Notes under the pieces: model-generated | The model's database searches: none | What the model was told of the DNA's origin: nothing | What the model saw: only the letters and a program-made list of their open reading frames with translations | Assembly (NCBI RefSeq): GCF_900313025.1 | Contig: NZ_OMPQ01000007.1 | Span: 1 to 60,263 of the forward strand | Direction of reading: 5' to 3' | Length of the DNA: 60,263 bases | DNA from: Pseudophaeobacter sp. EL27 | GTDB lineage: Bacteria > Pseudomonadota > Alphaproteobacteria > Rhodobacterales > Rhodobacteraceae | In this document: in pieces, positions 805 through 9,579 of the stretch | How positions within the stretch are numbered: the stretch's first letter is position 1 | How the letters are laid out: the number at the start of each line of letters is the position of its first letter | Made by a program: the position numbers and the translations under genes

Positions 805-1240
805 TCAGTCACCTTCAAAAATGACTTGTCGGCACCCCCTGAGAGCCCCAATTAGTGCTTCTAAAAGTTGCTCTAGCGGATACCAGTCACCATATGACTC
901 ATCCCGCCCAGAGCTGAACGCATGACCTTCGATTGCTTTGACCTTCTCGGGAAACACCTCTACCTGCCTCATTTGCTCTTTCATGTTGTGACGCGGGGAG
1001 TAGGCAACGTGCTTTGGGTTGCCTGTATGCTCTCTAATCCGGCGATTGAGAACCTGTGAGAGGCGATCCTGGCCGCCTGCCACTGCATAACGAGGGAAGG
1101 CAGGCCAAGCCCCCCCTTGCTCTCCACAAGCTCTCTTGCAGCCTCAAGCGCAGGGCCGACCAAGGGGATCTTTCTCTCTGACCATGTGCTTTTGAGGGTG
1201 TTATCGGCCCTTGGCTGAATACTGACATGAGGCGCGAAGC
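805..1240 (-). pseudogene. Decayed 3' fragment of a tyrosine recombinase (integrase)
   Basis: This is a second, broken copy of the C-terminal third of the integrase at 4889-6253. The DNA is clearly homologous along about 430 bp; a stretch of over 50 bases at 1164-1219 is almost identical to 5247-5303. The protein reading shifts frame near 1080-1110: one frame gives IQPRADNTLKSTWSERKIPL and the other gives GGQDRLSQVLNRRIR, AYSPRHNM and EGHAFSSG. The N-terminal two thirds, including the first catalytic Arg, are absent. The Tyr region survives (DWYPLEQL). It cannot encode a working enzyme and probably marks an older integration event or rearrangement of the island. Confidence 0.85.
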
Positions 1241-1471: not shown

Positions 1472-2581
1472 ATGAAATTTTGTTTCGCTCTTATTTTCTT
1501 ATTTTCGTTCATTTCTGCCATCGCAACAGCTGAAGAAATGACCTTCAAAATTGTGAGCGATGGCGGAAATCGCTACGACTGCTGCTGGGTTGTAGCCAGC
1601 GGCGAGATCACGGCGAATACACCTGCAGATTTCGCGGCCTTTGTACGAGAGGAAGGTCCCAAAGGTGGCCCGGTTAGAATCGTGGGGTCTGGTAGTGATA
1701 TTCCCGCAGCGATGGAACTCGGGACGCTTATCCGGAACGGGAATTTTTCAACGATTGTTGGATCATCCGTCAACTATTCCGGCCCTTGGTATGAAGAGCT
1801 TGATGAGGGGGAGTGCACTGCCGGGTGCGCTATTGCCTTCTTCGGCGGCAATCAACGACTTGTTCCCGTTGGTACTGAGCTCAAGTTAACCCAGTTTCAA
1901 GCAGATCTGGCCTCGGCAGGTACTGCGGGTCAGACCCTTTCAGGTGACGAAGCTATTAAGTCTCGGATCGAAAACCAGATTCGAACAGGTGAAGTGGTCA
2001 ACTACCTTGTCAAAATGGGGATCGATCTTCGAGCATACACCGTAGCAGCATCAGTGAATCCGATAACAGAATCTTCAGGTCGATCACTACCCCGAGATTT
2101 ACTCTTGGAGTATAGTATTGACAATGCATCGGACCAGCCAAGTGATTGGTTCGCTGAGCCTTTAGGTAACTGGTTCCGTGCAAGAACAGAAACTGCAGTA
2201 AGTGGTCGGGCCATCACCCTTAATTGCTCTCGGCGTTATGGCCATATCCTTGGTTTTGAGGCGGGCCAACAGACCATTCTGAACATCCAAGGCGCTATTC
2301 AGGGTAAATCTGGAATTATCGAATTTTCTGCCGATGGTTCTCAGTTTAAGGCCCAAACTATTGGGTTTGACTTTTCTAATGGTGAGCTAGCTAGAGTCGA
2401 GTTTTCGATTGGAGCGCGAGCGGCGCAGTCAATAATCGCGGCTGAAGCTTTTTTCTTCTCTGGGGTTGATGGAGGGGTAATGCGAACAGAGTTCGATGCC
2501 CTCGCTATCAGTTTTGCCATTCAAGGCCTACAGCAGGAAAACCACCTTCCCTCACGTCTTCTGGAGTTATGTTTCGAATGA
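1472..2581 (+). CDS. Exported ClpP-like protein that has lost its catalytic residues
   Basis: A periplasmic protein of about 369 residues. The start at ATG 1472 gives a good signal peptide (MKFCFALIFLFSFISAIATA, about 20 residues); ATG 1451 or TTG 1448 would add 7-8 residues. It is a paralog of the next gene, resembling the COG3904-type family of periplasmic proteins with a ClpP/crotonase-like fold (family assignment from memory). The paralog has CVSAC and GFHQF; this protein has CTAGC (A117 at the Ser position) and KLTQF (T140 at the His position), with the same 23-residue spacing. The GG of the presumed oxyanion loop is also changed (SGSDIPAAMELG). It is therefore predicted to be a non-catalytic partner. 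Its stop overlaps the next start by 13 bp, suggesting translational coupling. Confidence 0.75.
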   Translation: MKFCFALIFLFSFISAIATAEEMTFKIVSDGGNRYDCCWVVASGEITANTPADFAAFVREEGPKGGPVRIVGSGSDIPAAMELGTLIRNGNFSTIVGSSVNYSGPWYEELDEGECTAGCAIAFFGGNQRLVPVGTELKLTQFQADLASAGTAGQTLSGDEAIKSRIENQIRTGEVVNYLVKMGIDLRAYTVAASVNPITESSGRSLPRDLLLEYSIDNASDQPSDWFAEPLGNWFRARTETAVSGRAITLNCSRRYGHILGFEAGQQTILNIQGAIQGKSGIIEFSADGSQFKAQTIGFDFSNGELARVEFSIGARAAQSIIAAEAFFFSGVDGGVMRTEFDALAISFAIQGLQQENHLPSRLLELCFE

Positions 2582-3711
2582 TTAAAGTTGCGTATCTGGC
2601 TATTTGCCTTTCTTGGCTAAGTTCACATTGTTTGGCAGAAGAAACCATGCAGTTTGAGCATGGAAGCTACGGTGGAAACTGTCTCGGCTGTCAGTTCATC
2701 TCAGCCCAAGGGCGCATTACCGATGATACACCGGACAAATTTCGAACATTTATGAAAACCAACAGTGATGGCTTTGGGGTTGTATTGAACTCAGAAGGCG
2801 GATCTCTCGCGGGAGGGCTGGAATTGGGGAGGTTGTTTCGCGAATATGGTCTCGGTACGTCGATTGGTCGTGTCGTGCATGGATCCTCTCATTGGGATGA
2901 GGTCTTCAACGATGGAGGGTGCGTGTCTGCCTGCGCGTATGCCTTCCTTGGTGGTATTAACCGGTCGATCCAAGAGGGGAATTCTATAGGTTTTCACCAG
3001 TTTCACGATCCGGACTTTCTTCAGAGTGCGGCTCTGGTGGCAGGCAATCAAAGTTATTTTATGAACGCAATGGATCAATATACATCAGGGGTGATCGTCG
3101 AGTATTTAGTTGAGATGGGGATTGACCCGAGACTATATCAACTCGCATCGAAAGTTGGTCCAGCTGACCCGATTCGATTCATTGGACAAGATGAACAAGT
3201 TGAATTTGGGATCGCAGGTGGTTCCGATAGTTTAGGCGAATGGTCAATCTTAGCTTTTGGGGACGGCGTGCTGGCAGAAGCTGAAACTTCTATTTCAGAA
3301 CGTCGGGTTCGCCTGTACTGCAGCAATGACGGAAATTTTTACCTAACTTACATTTTGCCCCCCAGAGGTAGTTCTGTTTCTCCTGTGTTTAGCTATGGGG
3401 ACGCTGAATCGTATAAAAGCGATTATTCTGAGTTCTCTGGGTTTAGGTTTGATGTGATGGTCGATAGCCTCCTTGTACAAACTAGGGTGGCCGTAGTCGC
3501 CGGTATCCAATCGACTGGTGAAACGCTTATCGCACTTAAACTCAATCGAAGTCAGGCAGAAGCTGTTGCAAGGGCTTCAAGGGTTGTATTTTCGAATGAT
3601 AGACTACGGATACCTGAAGTGCGTCTCACATCTTACTATCCACCTGTGTTCTTGTCGCAAATACTCGGTGAGCCCTCGTTCCCACTCAACACCTTCCAGC
3701 TTTGCATTTAG
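2569..3711 (+). CDS. Exported ClpP-like putative serine protease
   Basis: A protein of 380 residues with a signal peptide (about 1-23, ending CLA). Residues 72-87 carry the strand and loop LNSEGGSLAGGLELG, expected to form the oxyanion hole. S120 in CVSACAYAFLGG and H143 in GFHQF sit where ClpP-like members of this family have nucleophile and base. Several cysteines (C38, C41, C118, C122) suggest disulfides in the periplasm. Residues after about 220 form a second domain I do not recognise. Start ATG 2569 lies inside the end of the preceding paralog, so the two are probably made together. Function unknown; proteolysis is inferred from motif geometry only. Confidence 0.75.
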   Translation: MFRMIKVAYLAICLSWLSSHCLAEETMQFEHGSYGGNCLGCQFISAQGRITDDTPDKFRTFMKTNSDGFGVVLNSEGGSLAGGLELGRLFREYGLGTSIGRVVHGSSHWDEVFNDGGCVSACAYAFLGGINRSIQEGNSIGFHQFHDPDFLQSAALVAGNQSYFMNAMDQYTSGVIVEYLVEMGIDPRLYQLASKVGPADPIRFIGQDEQVEFGIAGGSDSLGEWSILAFGDGVLAEAETSISERRVRLYCSNDGNFYLTYILPPRGSSVSPVFSYGDAESYKSDYSEFSGFRFDVMVDSLLVQTRVAVVAGIQSTGETLIALKLNRSQAEAVARASRVVFSNDRLRIPEVRLTSYYPPVFLSQILGEPSFPLNTFQLCI

Positions 3712-3753: not shown

Positions 3754-4125
3754 ATGAACAGTTTTGTTACAAGCATAGGTTTCGGACTACTCGCGACGGC
3801 CGTTTGCGCAGACGATACATTTTGGGTCATCCCTGAAGCGCAAGCACAGTGCATCCTCGAAAACCGTGATCAGTACCTAGCCCAACCTGGAGACCTGATT
3901 TTGATCCTAGTTGAACAGTGCCCAAACGTTGACATGTTCGCGGGAGCACTGGACGGTCAGGAGAGTTTTGGTGGGATAGGTGACATTAAAACGGGCACAA
4001 ATACCGTCTCTTTTGACAAGATGATCAGCTACACGCCCGATCAGCTTAAATGTCTAGCTTCCGAAATGATCGTGTTTGGCGGAGAATTCACGCGTTTTCC
4101 AAAGTTCGTCGAATGCGAAGGTTAA
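3754..4125 (+). CDS. Small exported protein, unknown function
   Basis: A 123-residue protein. A GGAG ribosome-binding site lies 5 bases before ATG 3754. The N-terminus (FVTSIGFGLLATAVCA) is a signal peptide cleaved near residue 19. The mature part is acidic and contains three cysteines (in AQCIL, EQCPN, LKCLA) plus one near the C-terminus (VECEG), so disulfides are likely. No known domain recognised. It follows the ClpP-like pair by 42 bp on the same strand and its stop overlaps the likely start of the next gene by 13 bp, the same overlap length as in the pair upstream. Confidence 0.65.
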   Translation: MNSFVTSIGFGLLATAVCADDTFWVIPEAQAQCILENRDQYLAQPGDLILILVEQCPNVDMFAGALDGQESFGGIGDIKTGTNTVSFDKMISYTPDQLKCLASEMIVFGGEFTRFPKFVECEG

Positions 4126-4703
4126 ATCGAAGCCGTCGGGCGAAAGTGATCATCAAATCAACGCACTCTGAAGGGAACCGGCTCACTTCCCTCGAGCGAT
4201 GGGATGCACTTGTTGAAATATTGGCCAATCTCACGATCATTGGTGCCTTGGCCCTTGCTGTCTGGACCTATCAATCTGACCAGCTGCAAAATCGTCAAGT
4301 CGCTTCCTATGACATGCTTGCCCGTTTCAATTCAGGTGAACTGCTTTCGGCTCAGTCAAATATTCGCCGCACGATAAATCGACTGCCTTTGAGTCAACTT
4401 AGAGGTGTTGTGATTCCGCGAAAGACTATGGAAACGATGCTGACACAGCTTGTTAGCCAAGAATCTCAAAAAGAAGACTTTAATCAGGATGCCATCTTAC
4501 TCACGGGGTTTTATGACCAAGTTCAGGTCTGCATCCAAATCGGTGCTTGCGACGAGGGCGTCATAAGGGCGCATCTCGGTGAAACAGCCCGGCGTCATGC
4601 ATGCATCCTAATGCCCTATGTAAGGAGGCTACGCTCCGATTTCCTGATTGATGGGCTCGGGGACGGCCATGCAGTCCTCGCGGAGTACGAAGAACGATGC
4701 TGA
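4113..4703 (+). CDS. Single-pass membrane protein, unknown function
   Basis: About 196 residues from ATG 4113; a longer frame from ATG 4050 would overlap the previous gene by 76 bp. The N-terminus is basic (MRRLNRSRRAKVIIK), followed by one hydrophobic segment around residues 36-52 (ILANLTIIGALALAVW). A soluble helical region of about 140 residues follows. The layout resembles small DUF4760-type membrane proteins, but I cannot assign a family. It is probably the last gene of a four-gene unit with the ClpP-like pair and the small exported protein. No clear Shine-Dalgarno precedes 4113, which fits coupled translation from the upstream stop. Confidence 0.55.
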   Translation: MRRLNRSRRAKVIIKSTHSEGNRLTSLERWDALVEILANLTIIGALALAVWTYQSDQLQNRQVASYDMLARFNSGELLSAQSNIRRTINRLPLSQLRGVVIPRKTMETMLTQLVSQESQKEDFNQDAILLTGFYDQVQVCIQIGACDEGVIRAHLGETARRHACILMPYVRRLRSDFLIDGLGDGHAVLAEYEERC

Positions 4704-4888: not shown

Positions 4889-6253
4889 TTAAACGCAACT
4901 TCTTCGTCGGTAATTCTTAAAGGCCTTCTCAAGCGCCTCTTGAAGTTGCTCTAAGGGGTATCCGCCGCCATATGACCCATCCTGCCCAGCGCTGAAGGCA
5001 TGACCCTCGAGAGCTTTGGCTTTCTCAGGAAACACTTCTGCCGACCTCATCCGGTCTTTCATATTGTGACGCAAGGAGTAGGCAACGTGCTTTGGGTTGT
5101 CTGTATACCCTCTAATCCGGCGATTGAGAGCCTGTGAGAGGCGATCTTGACCACCTGTCACTGCATAGCGCGGGAAGGCACACTCAGCTCCCTCCTTGCC
5201 TTTCACCAGCTCTCCGGCAACCTCTAGCGCTGGGCCCAATAAGGGGATCTTTCTCTCTGACCATGTGCTTTTGAGGGTGTTATCGGCCCTTGGCTGAATA
5301 ACGATATGAGGCACAGGGGCAGAAAGCACTATCTCAGAGACCCGCAGCATCCTGACTTCGCTAGGTCGCGCTCCAGTGTAATCCAAGAGAGTCCATATAT
5401 GCAGCAGATCTTTGTGGGGTTGTAGGTCCTCGTAAACCCTATCAATAACCAGCTGATCCAGTGGAAGACGCTGATCTCGTCTACCCTCCTTAGGCGTTTC
5501 AAGCTTCATCCCCTTGAAAGGGTTGACCTCTCCAGCGCCCTCCATCTCACTGACTGCCCAGCTAAACACCGCTCCGATGTCATTGCGCTCTCGCCTGACT
5601 GTGGCGGGAGCTACTTGCTTGAGGCGCATGTCACGCCATCTGCGTGCATCTGATCTTTTGACCTCCTGTAGAAGCATATCTCCTCCAAGGATAAAGATCA
5701 GGTTCTTCTCAGACCGGGCAAACCGCTGCCGTTGCTTCTTGTGTTGCTCAGGTATCTTGAGGGCATTTTCAACCAGATAGGCCGCAAAGGCATCCGTCAC
5801 GGTCACCTGAGGGGTTTCTTTCGAGACACCTCCAAGGAGAGCACTAGCCAGCAGACCGTCTTCCTCTGGCACTCCTACATATTCGCCTGATGCCGGGTCT
5901 TGGTATTTGTCCACCAATTGAGCAGCAGCCTCACCGCGCCATGTACGCTCATTGTCATCTCGCCCAGCGCTGTGCGGATCAGCATCCCAGCTTTCCAGCA
6001 ATACTGCCAGCTTCTTTGACTGCTCCATAGGGGAGAGGCCTGTGACGCCAAACTTGGCCAAGCTCACGAGATGTTCAATTCTCTCATGTTCAGCGCCGTA
6101 GCGCATGACTGCTTCGCTTTGGGTCTTGCCCAGCACCTTTAGGAACTCGCGCTTCTTGACCAGCTTCTCGAGAGACTTGGGGACTCTGCGCCGATACTCG
6201 AAACTACCTGTTCTGTCATTCTTCCTGAGGTATTTCACAGTCACATTCCGCAT
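4889..6253 (-). CDS. Tyrosine recombinase, genomic-island integrase
   Basis: A 454-residue phage-type integrase that inserts or excises the island by site-specific recombination. Residues about 150-250 form the core-binding (SAM-like) domain, and the catalytic domain follows. Catalytic residues seen: R296 (TGARPSEVR), R395 (AYSLRHNM), H418 (EGHAF) and nucleophile Y432 (GGGYPLEQL). Tyr replaces the usual His three residues before the second Arg. The start is 95 bp from the 3' end of tRNA-Thr, the classic position for a tRNA-targeting integrase, so the tRNA 3' end is the likely attachment site and the island extends left. A decayed partial copy lies at 805-1240. The gene appears intact. Confidence 0.9.
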   Translation of the reverse strand: MRNVTVKYLRKNDRTGSFEYRRRVPKSLEKLVKKREFLKVLGKTQSEAVMRYGAEHERIEHLVSLAKFGVTGLSPMEQSKKLAVLLESWDADPHSAGRDDNERTWRGEAAAQLVDKYQDPASGEYVGVPEEDGLLASALLGGVSKETPQVTVTDAFAAYLVENALKIPEQHKKQRQRFARSEKNLIFILGGDMLLQEVKRSDARRWRDMRLKQVAPATVRRERNDIGAVFSWAVSEMEGAGEVNPFKGMKLETPKEGRRDQRLPLDQLVIDRVYEDLQPHKDLLHIWTLLDYTGARPSEVRMLRVSEIVLSAPVPHIVIQPRADNTLKSTWSERKIPLLGPALEVAGELVKGKEGAECAFPRYAVTGGQDRLSQALNRRIRGYTDNPKHVAYSLRHNMKDRMRSAEVFPEKAKALEGHAFSAGQDGSYGGGYPLEQLQEALEKAFKNYRRRSCV

Positions 6254-6347
6254 AGCCTAAACCCACATTGTGTAGCTAAGCGTGTAGTTGGAACGGATGC
6301 AATAGGGGTACTTACCCTTATACATCAACAACTTACTGTGAGAAAAA

Positions 6348-6423
6348 TGGTGCCCCCACACGGACTCGAACCGCGGACCTACTGATTACAAATCAGTTGC
6401 TCTACCAGCTGAGCTATAGGGGC
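6348..6423 (-). tRNA. tRNA-Thr (anticodon TGT)
   Basis: The minus strand folds as a full cloverleaf. The acceptor GCCCCTA pairs with TGGGGGC, including one T-G pair. The D arm contains AGCTCAGCTGGTAGAGC. The anticodon stem ACTGA/TCAGT encloses loop TTTGTAA with anticodon TGT (Thr). The T arm is CGCGG TTCGAGT CCGTG. The discriminator A is followed by an encoded CCA (6348-6350). The gene is complete and is the likely integration site of the island to its left. Confidence 0.95.
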
Positions 6424-6912
6424 ACTTTTACTACTGCGACCTAGGTGCGCCGTCTTTATGGTGCCTCGCAGTTGCTGCGTCCTTCTACACCAAACTATTC
6501 TGTTTGCAAGACCCCATTGGAAGAAATTTCATTCCACTGCTTTCTTCCCCCCTGCCCATTTGGCCGTTACCCTTCCCCTGCCCAGCAAAGCCAAACAACA
6601 TCAGTGGCTTGAGCGCCAAGATCACCCAGCCTGCAGAGCGGGAAAAAGAGCTGTGCGGTTGAGGCATTTTCGGTAATCAGAGGTATTTTGCCTATCTTCT
6701 GCAATCGCAACCGCCCTTGGTATCGCCTCATGAATGAGCCAGTATTGGGGCGGGGCGTTAAGGATGGTAAATGCTGTGGTATCACCTCTCTTCTTAAAAG
6801 CTGCGTCACTGGGAGCCCCCCCCTAGATCCGCGCTGATCGCTGACCGTTTGACCTGCCTAGCCCGGCGGAGTAAGCCTGAGGTAACGCAGGTGACAGGAG
6901 ATATGCGACCCG
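6424..6912. other. Intergenic region, no gene seen
   Basis: These 489 bp lie between tRNA-Thr and the sulfotransferase-like gene. Short frames occur on both strands but none has a ribosome-binding site, a recognisable protein or coding-like composition. Runs such as CCCCCCC near 6817 are present. No RNA structure or repeat was recognised. The tRNA promoter should lie in the first part. Confidence 0.5.
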
Positions 6913-7788
6913 ATGCAGGTCATTTTTCATTGCGGCGCACATGGAACCGAAGAGGACCGTCTGCTGAAGACTTTGCTGCGCAACAAGGACCGCTTCCACC
7001 AGCACGGAACCGTTGTGCCGGGCCCAGGCAAGTATCGCTATCTGCTCAAAGATTGCATTGCAGCCCTCCAGGAGGGGCAAGTCACCGCTGAAGCCCGCGA
7101 TGTTCTTTGGGATGCGATCCTGGAAGAAGAACAGGCCGACAGGGTCATTCTATCCAATGCCAATTTCTTTGGCTCGCCACGCCAATCCATCGAAGGCAGC
7201 CAGTTCTACCCAGAAGCAGAGGCCCGGCTGCTGTCCTTGCAGCAGTTGTTCGCCCAGGATCAGTTGGAGCTGTTTATAGGAGTGCGAAATCCGGCAACCA
7301 TGCTGCCCGGCCTGCTCGAAAACGCGCATCCGGATCGAAAGGCCCAGGTGCTGAGCGAGCTTGATCCCTATAACCTACGCTGGTCAGACCTATTGAACCG
7401 GCTACGGCAGGCGGCTCCTGAAGTGCCAATCAACGTCTGGTGCTTTGAAGATATGCCTCTCATCTGGGCACAGATTATCCGTGACATGTCCGGACTGGAG
7501 ATGAACCAGCGCCTGGATGGCGGCATGGATTTGCTCTCGGCTATCATGAGCCGCGAAGGCATGCGGCGGCTGCGCCAATATCTGGCGCAACACCCGGAGA
7601 TGTCAGAAATGCATCGGCGGCGTGTCTTTGCCGCCTTTCTGGACAAATATGTCCGCGAAGACGAGTTGGAAGAAGAGGTCGACCTGCCAGGCTGGAACGA
7701 CGCCATCGTCGAGACTGTCACATCTTTCTACGAAGAAGATATGGAGACAGTGCAGCGTATTCCCGGCGTAACGATGATCGCGCCTTAG
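6913..7788 (+). CDS. Sulfotransferase-like / P-loop NTPase-fold protein
   Basis: A 291-residue cytoplasmic protein. It opens with MQVIFHCGAHGTEEDR, which resembles the 5'-phosphosulfate loop (GAHKTGTT-like) of bacterial sulfotransferase-family proteins, although the Lys and second Thr are not conserved (GAHGTEED). FIGVRNPATMLPGLL in the middle resembles the 3'-phosphate-binding RNP segment of such enzymes. No signal peptide or membrane segment. It stands alone, 489 bp from the tRNA and convergent with the next gene. Altered nucleotide-loop residues make real sulfotransfer uncertain. The acceptor is unknown. Confidence 0.6.
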   Translation: MQVIFHCGAHGTEEDRLLKTLLRNKDRFHQHGTVVPGPGKYRYLLKDCIAALQEGQVTAEARDVLWDAILEEEQADRVILSNANFFGSPRQSIEGSQFYPEAEARLLSLQQLFAQDQLELFIGVRNPATMLPGLLENAHPDRKAQVLSELDPYNLRWSDLLNRLRQAAPEVPINVWCFEDMPLIWAQIIRDMSGLEMNQRLDGGMDLLSAIMSREGMRRLRQYLAQHPEMSEMHRRRVFAAFLDKYVREDELEEEVDLPGWNDAIVETVTSFYEEDMETVQRIPGVTMIAP

Positions 7789-7825
7789 CCCAGCCTTTCT
7801 GCCTCAAAGGGGCCGCCTGCCCGGT

Positions 7826-8245
7826 CTAGGGCGAAATTGGCTGGCCTAACCGGTTGACCTTGAGCGTTTCCATCGTGCGATCGTCATAAAAAACATCGAT
7901 GGTAATCTGCTGGATAGAGCCCAGCGGAAAGACGCCATAGGGCAAACCATCCTCTGACAGGATGGCATTGGGGGCCGCCTGATCCTCGTGGCAGGGGGGC
8001 ATGGGCCAGATCACCGGTTCCGCCCCATTGACACCAATGCGCATGCCGTCCAGCCCACAACGCCAGGACCACAGATGGGTCACATAAAGCAGGTCCTGCC
8101 CCTCATATTCGCGCACCGAAACCCAATTCGCCCGTGTGGCGGCCAAAATGGGTTTGACCTCTGCGGCCGTGGTAAAGGGCGCGGCCTGCGCCCCGCTCGG
8201 CAACAGACCCAGTGCCAACCCCAGGACGGATAGTGTTCTCAACAT
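7826..8245 (-). CDS. Exported protein, unknown function
   Basis: About 139 residues. The start at ATG 8245 is chosen because GAGG lies 8 bases upstream; the ATG at 8251 would be too close to it, and the longer frame to 8299 has no site. The N-terminus MLRTLSVLGLALGLLPSGAQA is a clear signal peptide. The mature part contains WRCGLDG and PPCHEDQ, whose two cysteines may pair. It resembles short secreted proteins common in Rhodobacterales with no assigned function. Confidence 0.6.
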   Translation of the reverse strand: MLRTLSVLGLALGLLPSGAQAAPFTTAAEVKPILAATRANWVSVREYEGQDLLYVTHLWSWRCGLDGMRIGVNGAEPVIWPMPPCHEDQAAPNAILSEDGLPYGVFPLGSIQQITIDVFYDDRTMETLKVNRLGQPISP

Positions 8246-8402
8246 GATCATTACCTCGCTAAAACTGATACAAACAAGTCGCGCCCCATGGACCAGCACC
8301 GCAATCTGCGCGGATTGTCTTTTGCCTCGGGGTGGTTTCGAATATAGATCCTAAGATACCCAAGCCCCAACCGCTCGCAAGAGGCGGAAGACAGGAAAAG
8401 CA

Positions 8403-9392
8403 ATGGCGCAGCAGTCTTTCAACGTCGTGATCATCGGCCAGGCAGGCCGCCTGCAATATGAATCCCTGCTGTTTGCCGCCTCTCTGCGCCACAGCTCACC
8501 TGGGTTTTCCGGACGGTTGTTTGTCGCGGTGCCGCAGCCAGGGCCGCTCTGGCAAAAAGACCCAAGCATTCACAATGCAGGCGTCTTGGAGGCCTTTGCC
8601 CGCCTGGGCGTCGAAATCCTGCCCTTTGAAAGCAAGATCTTTGGCGAAAAATACCCCTATGGCAATAAAATCGAGGCGCTACAGGCCCTGCCCGAAGGCG
8701 AGCCCTTTGTGTTTTTTGACAGCGACACGCTGATCACCGGCGAACTGGCATCGGTGCCCTTTGATTTCAACCGCCCCTCTGCCTCGTTGCGGCGCGAAGG
8801 CACCTGGCCCAAACCAACACTTTATGGACCCGGCTATACCGAAATCTGGCGCTCCCTTTACGAGCGCTTTGGGCTCGATATGGACTCCACCCTGGACCTG
8901 GAGCAGCCGGATGAGTTCTGGAAACGCTACCTCTATTTTAATGCCGGTTTTTTCTACGGCGCCTGCCCGCGCGCCTTTGGCAAACGCTTTGCGGTCTATG
9001 CCCAGTCCATTCAAAAAGACCCTCCCATCGAACTGGTCGGGCAATCTCTGGATCCCTGGCTCGATCAGGTTGCCCTGCCCCTGGTCATCCACTCCTTTGG
9101 CGGCGGGCGTGATACCATGCCCCAGGGCTATCTGGATGGCGAGGTCAGCTGTCACTATCGGCTGTTCCCATTGCTTTATGCCCGCGAGAGCGATGCGGTG
9201 ATTGCGCTGTTGGAAGAGGTTGCCGCGCCAAACTGGCTCAAAAAAGTGCTGAAGACCTATGAGCCAATCAAGCGTCTTGTCTATCAGAACCGCGGCGCGC
9301 GGGTGCGGGCGTTGTTTGATCAGAACCACCTGCCCCGGCGCGAGCAGGCCATTCGCAACAAGATCAAATCCGAAGGTCTGTGGATCCGCTAG
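8403..9392 (+). CDS. Putative glycosyltransferase, GT-A fold
   Basis: A 329-residue cytoplasmic protein. The N-terminal strand FNVVIIGQAG is followed by a DxD motif, D106-S107-D108, in FVFFDSDTLITG, the expected metal and sugar-nucleotide site of a GT-A glycosyltransferase. NAGFFYGACP and a later LDQVALPL resemble the acceptor-side and DQ motifs of GT8-like and related families. No membrane segment. It follows a divergent small gene and precedes the MetY-type gene in the same direction with a 187-bp gap. Donor and acceptor sugars cannot be told from the sequence. Confidence 0.6.
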   Translation: MAQQSFNVVIIGQAGRLQYESLLFAASLRHSSPGFSGRLFVAVPQPGPLWQKDPSIHNAGVLEAFARLGVEILPFESKIFGEKYPYGNKIEALQALPEGEPFVFFDSDTLITGELASVPFDFNRPSASLRREGTWPKPTLYGPGYTEIWRSLYERFGLDMDSTLDLEQPDEFWKRYLYFNAGFFYGACPRAFGKRFAVYAQSIQKDPPIELVGQSLDPWLDQVALPLVIHSFGGGRDTMPQGYLDGEVSCHYRLFPLLYARESDAVIALLEEVAAPNWLKKVLKTYEPIKRLVYQNRGARVRALFDQNHLPRREQAIRNKIKSEGLWIR

Positions 9393-9579
9393 AGATCTTC
9401 CCGCTCCTCATTCAGGCTTGGTTTTGACCTGAGCAGGCCTGAGCGGCCTGATATCGGGAATGTTTTCCCGCGCTGCTCCCATTACTGGCTCAATTGTTCC
9501 GATTTACCACGCCTGCGTTGTACCCACGGGCAAGCTGTCCTACACATTTGCCAACAAAACTGATGAGGGAGAAAACCAA

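Follow-up and report, generated by a model that had tools for sequence, protein, structure and literature searches.

A tandem of active and dead ClpP-like genes in a rare four-gene module on a putative genomic island of Pseudophaeobacter sp. EL27

The stretch of DNA analysed here (60,263 nucleotides, hereafter the window) is the whole of contig NZ_OMPQ01000007.1 of the alphaproteobacterium Pseudophaeobacter sp. EL27. Near its start, two overlapping genes on the forward strand encode ClpP-like proteins which look exported: gene A (1472..2581, starting at ATG 1472; 369 amino acids), a putative pseudo-enzyme, and gene B (2569..3711, starting at ATG 2569; 380 amino acids), which has the catalytic-type residues S120 and H143. 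Genes for a small protein and a DUF4760 protein follow, and an integrase gene next to a tRNA gene lies beyond them. Copies which have lost Ser, His or both are called dead in this work, and those with both are called active.

The residues A117 and T140 of A stand where B has S120 and H143, with a spacing of 23 residues in each protein. Of the ClpP-type catalytic Ser and His, both are therefore found in B and neither in A. The oxyanion loop is NSEGGS in B and VGSGSD in A. A preliminary description of this locus, made from the sequence alone, had reported the same residues, spacing and changed loop, and both open reading frames (ORFs) and all these residues were confirmed. In a single pairwise comparison the two proteins share 33% identity over 250 residues with an expectation value (E) of 6e-34, which makes them true paralogs. 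Judged by eye, both N-termini have a hydrophobic stretch resembling a cleavable signal peptide, and both proteins carry an extra C-terminal domain. The same description gave the genes a 13-bp overlap; this holds from ATG 2569 but is not the sole reading, since the in-frame ATG 2578 would give a 4-bp ATGA overlap, an option also present in the two other complete pairs presented below.

Four cysteines of B (C118, C122, C251 and C379) are invariant or nearly so in the family alignments. The CxSxC motif at the catalytic Ser of B may form a disulphide, and the Cys pair around the active site is retained in A although Ser and His are gone. The product of gene A is predicted to adopt a ClpP fold, in agreement with the preliminary description. 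Against E. coli ClpP, a profile alignment extended over only 28 columns near the oxyanion loop (probability 47%). None of 24 relatives matched the ClpP family PF00574 at E 0.1, and searches of PDB sequences with A or B alone returned nothing useful.

A first contig scan with B as query gave 0 relatives. The family profile was then applied to 390 genomes of the order, where, among the matches listed, at most five candidates were scored per genome and pairs may have been missed; a collection of 84,980 species genomes was also scanned, with 215 matching stretches and 34 confirmed loci. Within the genus of the window the pair is present in one of 12 genomes, which is the window's own. The active/dead pairing pointed out in the preliminary description recurs in two other genomes. 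In genome G472, from another genus of the same family, an active and a dead gene are adjacent with a 4-bp overlap, and in the dead copy Asp replaces Ser and the His is lost. In Paracoccus homiensis DSM 17862 (L119), the active gene (6814-8004) is followed by a dead one (7995-9137) with Glu for Ser and without the His; its ATG 8001 start gives the ATGA overlap and an alternative TTG start gives a 10-bp overlap. The order is active then dead in G472 and P. homiensis, and dead then active in the window. The ClpR-type combination of a ClpP fold, lost catalytic residues and conservation beside an active paralog was found in three complete cases. In a further genome (G362, L176 1426-3585), a truncated dead gene with Asp for Ser adjoins whole genes for the small and DUF4760 proteins. 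This stretch matches the G472 module at 93% over 2,040 bases, and the similarity ends at base 2290, inside the dead gene.

The pair does not stand by itself. The third gene of the window (3754..4125, forward strand) encodes a small exported-looking protein of 123 amino acids with 36% identity to its neighbour in G472; its Cys 33, 56 and 100 are invariant in nine aligned sequences and a fourth Cys is usual. The fourth gene (4113..4703, forward strand) encodes a protein with one N-terminal hydrophobic stretch, which matches DUF4760 (Pfam PF15956, E 2.3e-07, on the longer ORF 4050-4703), is 36% identical to its G472 homolog and has four Cys in common with the proteins of G472 and P. homiensis. 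With ATG 4113 as its start, the DUF4760 gene overlaps the small gene by 13 bp, and this overlap is available in all three complete copies. Homologs of both adjoin the dead-gene fragment in G362 and the pair in G472 and P. homiensis; in the latter two genomes they face the pair tail to tail, whereas in the window they lie downstream of it. This co-occurrence shows that the unit consists of four genes, that is, A, B, the small four-Cys protein and the DUF4760 protein. The conserved Cys of B, the small protein and the DUF4760 protein fit an oxidising compartment.

The four-gene module is rare. The small protein was found in three of 295 genomes of the family and in one of 357 genomes of the class, the latter being the window's own. 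Six of the 34 loci from the species-genome scan hold the small and DUF4760 genes, namely P. homiensis, Sabulicella (L125), Roseococcus (L127), Ruegeria (L131), a Sphingomonadales metagenome-assembled genome (L133) and Sphingomonas kyeonggiensis (L139). A ClpP-like gene accompanies them in Sabulicella, Roseococcus and Ruegeria (in the last, two more family members with Ser and His lie immediately upstream), two ClpP-like genes do so in L133 and L139, and genome G050 (L155) combines them with a distant ClpP-like gene. The first matches of the small protein in the distant modules were weak (E 7e-05 to 0.003; 7e-11 for L155), but they are supported by their position and by the DUF4760 neighbour. 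Six of the seven DUF4760 proteins from other genomes match the Pfam model at E up to 0.1 (L155 does not), and L133 alone among them passes its cut-off, as the window protein does too. A tblastn search of the plasmid collection with the P. homiensis DUF4760 protein returned no hit at E 0.001.

Phylogenetic trees were built from chosen sets of 36 and 28 rows with the first 250 residues of each sequence, which span the peptidase-like part, and 21 columns around the motifs were removed from the smaller set; in the full-length tree, 7 short or distant rows of the 59 family rows were left out. Gene A joins the dead genes of G472 and P. homiensis with support of 99/96 in the 36-row tree, its clade has 96/97 in the 28-row tree, and A with the G472 copy has 90/91 in the full-length tree. 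Constraining A and B together was disfavoured with 36 rows (approximately unbiased test, p-AU 0.031). The trees thus give the dead lineage good support, and a common origin of the active partners weaker support. The preliminary description had considered that homologs of A might usually keep Ser and His, which would make its loss a recent mutation. This is true of the wide family, in which 51 of 59 rows have both (a few of the rows are near-identical), and untrue of A's own clade, where both are gone in all four copies (A, G472, P. homiensis and the G362 fragment). These results support the dead gene as an old lineage rather than a recent mutation. Between G472 and P. homiensis, the dead gene has a ratio of nonsynonymous to synonymous substitution rates (dN/dS; Nei-Gojobori) of 0.113; the value is 0.094 for its active neighbour, 0.158 for the small gene and 0.051 for the DUF4760 gene. 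The dead gene is thus maintained by purifying selection in the lineage of these two genomes; A itself is without a close relative for such a comparison.

In the wider family, the loss of catalytic residues is scattered. Matches to B at E 0.001 were found in 98 of the 248 family genomes sampled (window's own included), and matches to A in 12. The eight rows without the full Ser/His set are A, the G472 copy, L016, L020, L068, L071, L073 and L099; in the 59-row table, L068 has lost Ser alone and L071 His alone. Since L071, L073 and L099 make up a distinct clade and L020 clusters with L068, the loss occurred several times. The products of L071, L073 and L099 (genomes G347 and G272) are exported ClpP-like proteins with damaged sites, with Asp for Ser in two and the aligned His in none of the three. 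Two Dyella loci (L150 and L152) each hold a single family member, in which Asp stands in place of Ser, and Thr or Ala in place of His.

Two ClpP-like domains are joined in a single ORF in 11 of the 34 loci of the species-genome scan, from Rhizobium, one Rhizobiales isolate and two Mesorhizobium (L132, L134, L136, L138, L140, L142, L143, L144, L146, L147 and L148). In all 11, the first domain has the Ser and, 23 residues on, the His. At the equivalent position of the second domain, none of the 11 has His (Val in five, Asn in two, Arg in two, Ser in one and Asp in one); the Ser of this domain is kept in nine and is Ala in the two Mesorhizobium ORFs. As judged from these residues, a combination of active and dead units exists within one chain. 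The 11 fused ORFs are related to one another and therefore represent few independent events.

The setting of the module supports a mobile island, as the preliminary description had proposed. A tyrosine-recombinase-like integrase gene (4889..6253, reverse strand; weak Pfam matches to Phage_integrase and Phage_int_M, below cut-off) lies beside tRNA-Thr(TGT) (6348..6423, reverse strand; found by ARAGORN), which abuts it. From its sequence and position, this gene is likely to be the island's integrase and the tRNA its insertion site. To the left of the cargo, a degraded copy of the 3′ part of the integrase (854..1233, reverse strand) shows 82% and 87% identity to 4932-5312; the two direct copies are spaced by 4078-4079 bases with the four genes between them. 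Part of 6260-9400 is matched in all 12 genus genomes, the window's included, and the tRNA was seen in four of the five relatives whose stretch was compared. G949 resembles the window for 318 bases past and through the tRNA and on into the beginning of the integrase, where the match stops, and in G948, G945 and G947 other sequence lies beyond the tRNA. The start of the contig has an IS3-like transposase fragment below the model's cut-off. An IS21-like gene pair stands alongside the G472 module, and an integrase-like ORF follows the broken module on the G362 contig (both named by eye).

Taken together, we lean towards A and B being subunits of a ClpP-fold serine peptidase of the envelope, with the small and DUF4760 proteins as partners, encoded by an island-borne accessory module. 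The dead copy looks like a working part and not a broken gene, because the pair and the same two partner genes recur in other bacteria. B would supply the active sites. A would be a ClpR-like pseudo-subunit with a part in assembling the complex and in shaping its surface and the access of substrates. The small four-Cys protein would be a soluble partner that serves as adaptor, activator or inhibitor; the DUF4760 protein would tether the complex to the inner membrane. No AAA+ unfoldase or ATPase was seen among the module genes of the window, G472 or P. homiensis, and a partner encoded elsewhere is possible; because none is encoded alongside, the peptidase is proposed to work independently of ATP, nearer to the SppA/NfeD type than to ClpXP. 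Integrative islands would spread the four genes as a rare accessory set. Export, the heteromer, the tether, ATP independence and any physiological role are inferred, and an island-borne role in envelope stress or conflict is a guess. PADLOC models gave no family for A, B, the small protein, the DUF4760 protein or the integrase at E up to 0.1.

SppA/NfeD-type peptidases reside in the envelope and are independent of ATP, and SppA has two ClpP-like units in one chain, with catalysis by Ser/Lys. The fused Rhizobium-type ORFs resemble SppA in having two such units per chain. However, B keeps a His at ClpP-like spacing, and profile alignment with E. coli SppA gave next to no match (hhalign probability 3%). 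Another candidate group is that of the COG3904 predicted periplasmic proteins, which are exported and ClpP-like and to which A and B may belong; the term reportedly occurs in a Vibrio genome comparison.

The closest known kind to the A/B pair are the ClpP/ClpR cores. Active/dead ClpP-fold pairs are already known from plastids and cyanobacteria, where the core joins a catalytic ClpP-fold subunit to a non-catalytic paralog and operates with AAA+ chaperones (PMC6508832). The likeness lies in an active ClpP-fold subunit being paired with a dead paralog, as B is with A. On the other hand, those cores are inside the cell or plastid whereas A and B look exported, and A and B have the extra C-terminal domain, no adjacent ATPase gene, and the small four-Cys and DUF4760 partners.

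The role of A may be read in other ways. It is unlikely, though worth weighing, that A is a free regulator which binds the substrates of B, the small protein or the surface of B, as a decoy or inhibitor of B. The active site of A is emptied, yet A retains its fold and the Cys pair around that site, and other dead members exist without a family neighbour, all of which would suit such a regulator. Nevertheless, the possible translational coupling, the co-occurrence with one active partner and the fusions in Rhizobium/Mesorhizobium-type genomes fit a 1:1 complex better. The identity of only 33% could also reflect two separate homo-oligomers with different ligands, where A, descended from a peptidase, has become a binding protein and the tandem is a mere duplication; we regard this as rather improbable, as the pair stays together across gene orders and genera. 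That A is a functionless duplicate decaying on a mobile island, as its long branch, the degraded integrase copy, the IS3-like fragment nearby and the truncation in G362 might suggest, is very improbable given its intact frame, the intact-frame dead orthologs in G472 and P. homiensis, the dN/dS between these and the support of their clade.

Several results weigh against A and B being the subunits of one ClpP-fold peptidase. The profile searches did not place the proteins in a ClpP-like family: neither A nor B matched a Pfam family at E up to 1, NCBIfam gave no family for either (one match to B, E 0.12, far below cut-off), and matches to ClpP chains were weak, the best having E 0.51, behind unrelated chains at 0.21-0.30. 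For the catalytic Asp, the alignments inspected by eye show no single outstanding acidic column. The complete active/dead modules known number only three, and two of these are close relatives. There is no active copy on the 4,013-base contig of G362, where the dead gene is cut, which shows that the four-gene set can be broken. Ser and His are kept in both ClpP-like copies of L133 and L139, which means that the architecture can do without a dead partner. The 8.5-11 kb read around each of L016, L020, L068, L071, L073 and L099 contained no further family gene, so dead members do not generally sit beside active ones in this family. As for the origin of the active partners, B joins the active genes of G472 and P. 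homiensis at a weak 89/60 in the 36-row tree, this grouping is not recovered in the 28-row tree, a quick 67-row tree sets it apart from other active copies, and with full-length rows an A+B clade is not rejected (p-AU 0.25).

A broader proposal is more tentative, and we judge it possible without quite favouring it: a hitherto undescribed four-gene envelope system, spread on islands across Alphaproteobacteria, in which a ClpP-fold peptidase has an obligate dead subunit of ClpR type and is accompanied by a small disulphide protein and a DUF4760 membrane anchor. Active/dead pairing would have arisen more than once, as a repeated design of exported ClpP-like peptidases. The repetition is suggested by the divergence of a tandem pair here and the fusion of active and dead domains in Rhizobium and Mesorhizobium. 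No description of the four-gene module was found in the open literature searched, subscription papers and preprints being outside its scope. If the proposed peptidase is real, an exported pair without an adjacent ATPase would be a simple two-gene bacterial system for studying the role of a dead subunit, and context would be gained for exported ClpP-like proteins and DUF4760, which are hardly mentioned in that literature. In PMC9964261, a DUF4760 protein appears in a table of Serratia genomic-island genes.

Other observations concern related loci. The tRNA-Thr(TGT) gene (window 6348-6423; L170, L172, L173 and L174) looks like an integration hotspot, with the sequence past its 3′ end varying among species of the genus. 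The S. kyeonggiensis module begins a few hundred bases downstream of a tRNA-Glu gene (L139 6248-6322), perhaps another island site. Near the P. homiensis module, a T5orf172-domain protein (L119 10912-11850) has a PADLOC match to PDC-S57. Adjacent pairs with Ser and His in both copies are located at G543:C71:92482-94569 (L084), in Mameliella (L122 7836-10127) and at G398:C3:190972-193329 (L086), the last in divergent orientation. The ORF preceding the Mameliella pair was rejected as a further module gene, having no export signal by eye and no match to the small or DUF4760 proteins. B matched 154 plasmid records, 117 of them from Pseudomonas, and the Pseudomonas plasmid loci L049, L052 and L053 have one family member with Ser and His in each stretch. 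Two contigs of a viral collection (L156 and L157) hold ClpP-like family members, and a distant one is encoded by Agrobacterium phage Atu_ph08 (MF403009.1, 57108-57638; two records of one phage).
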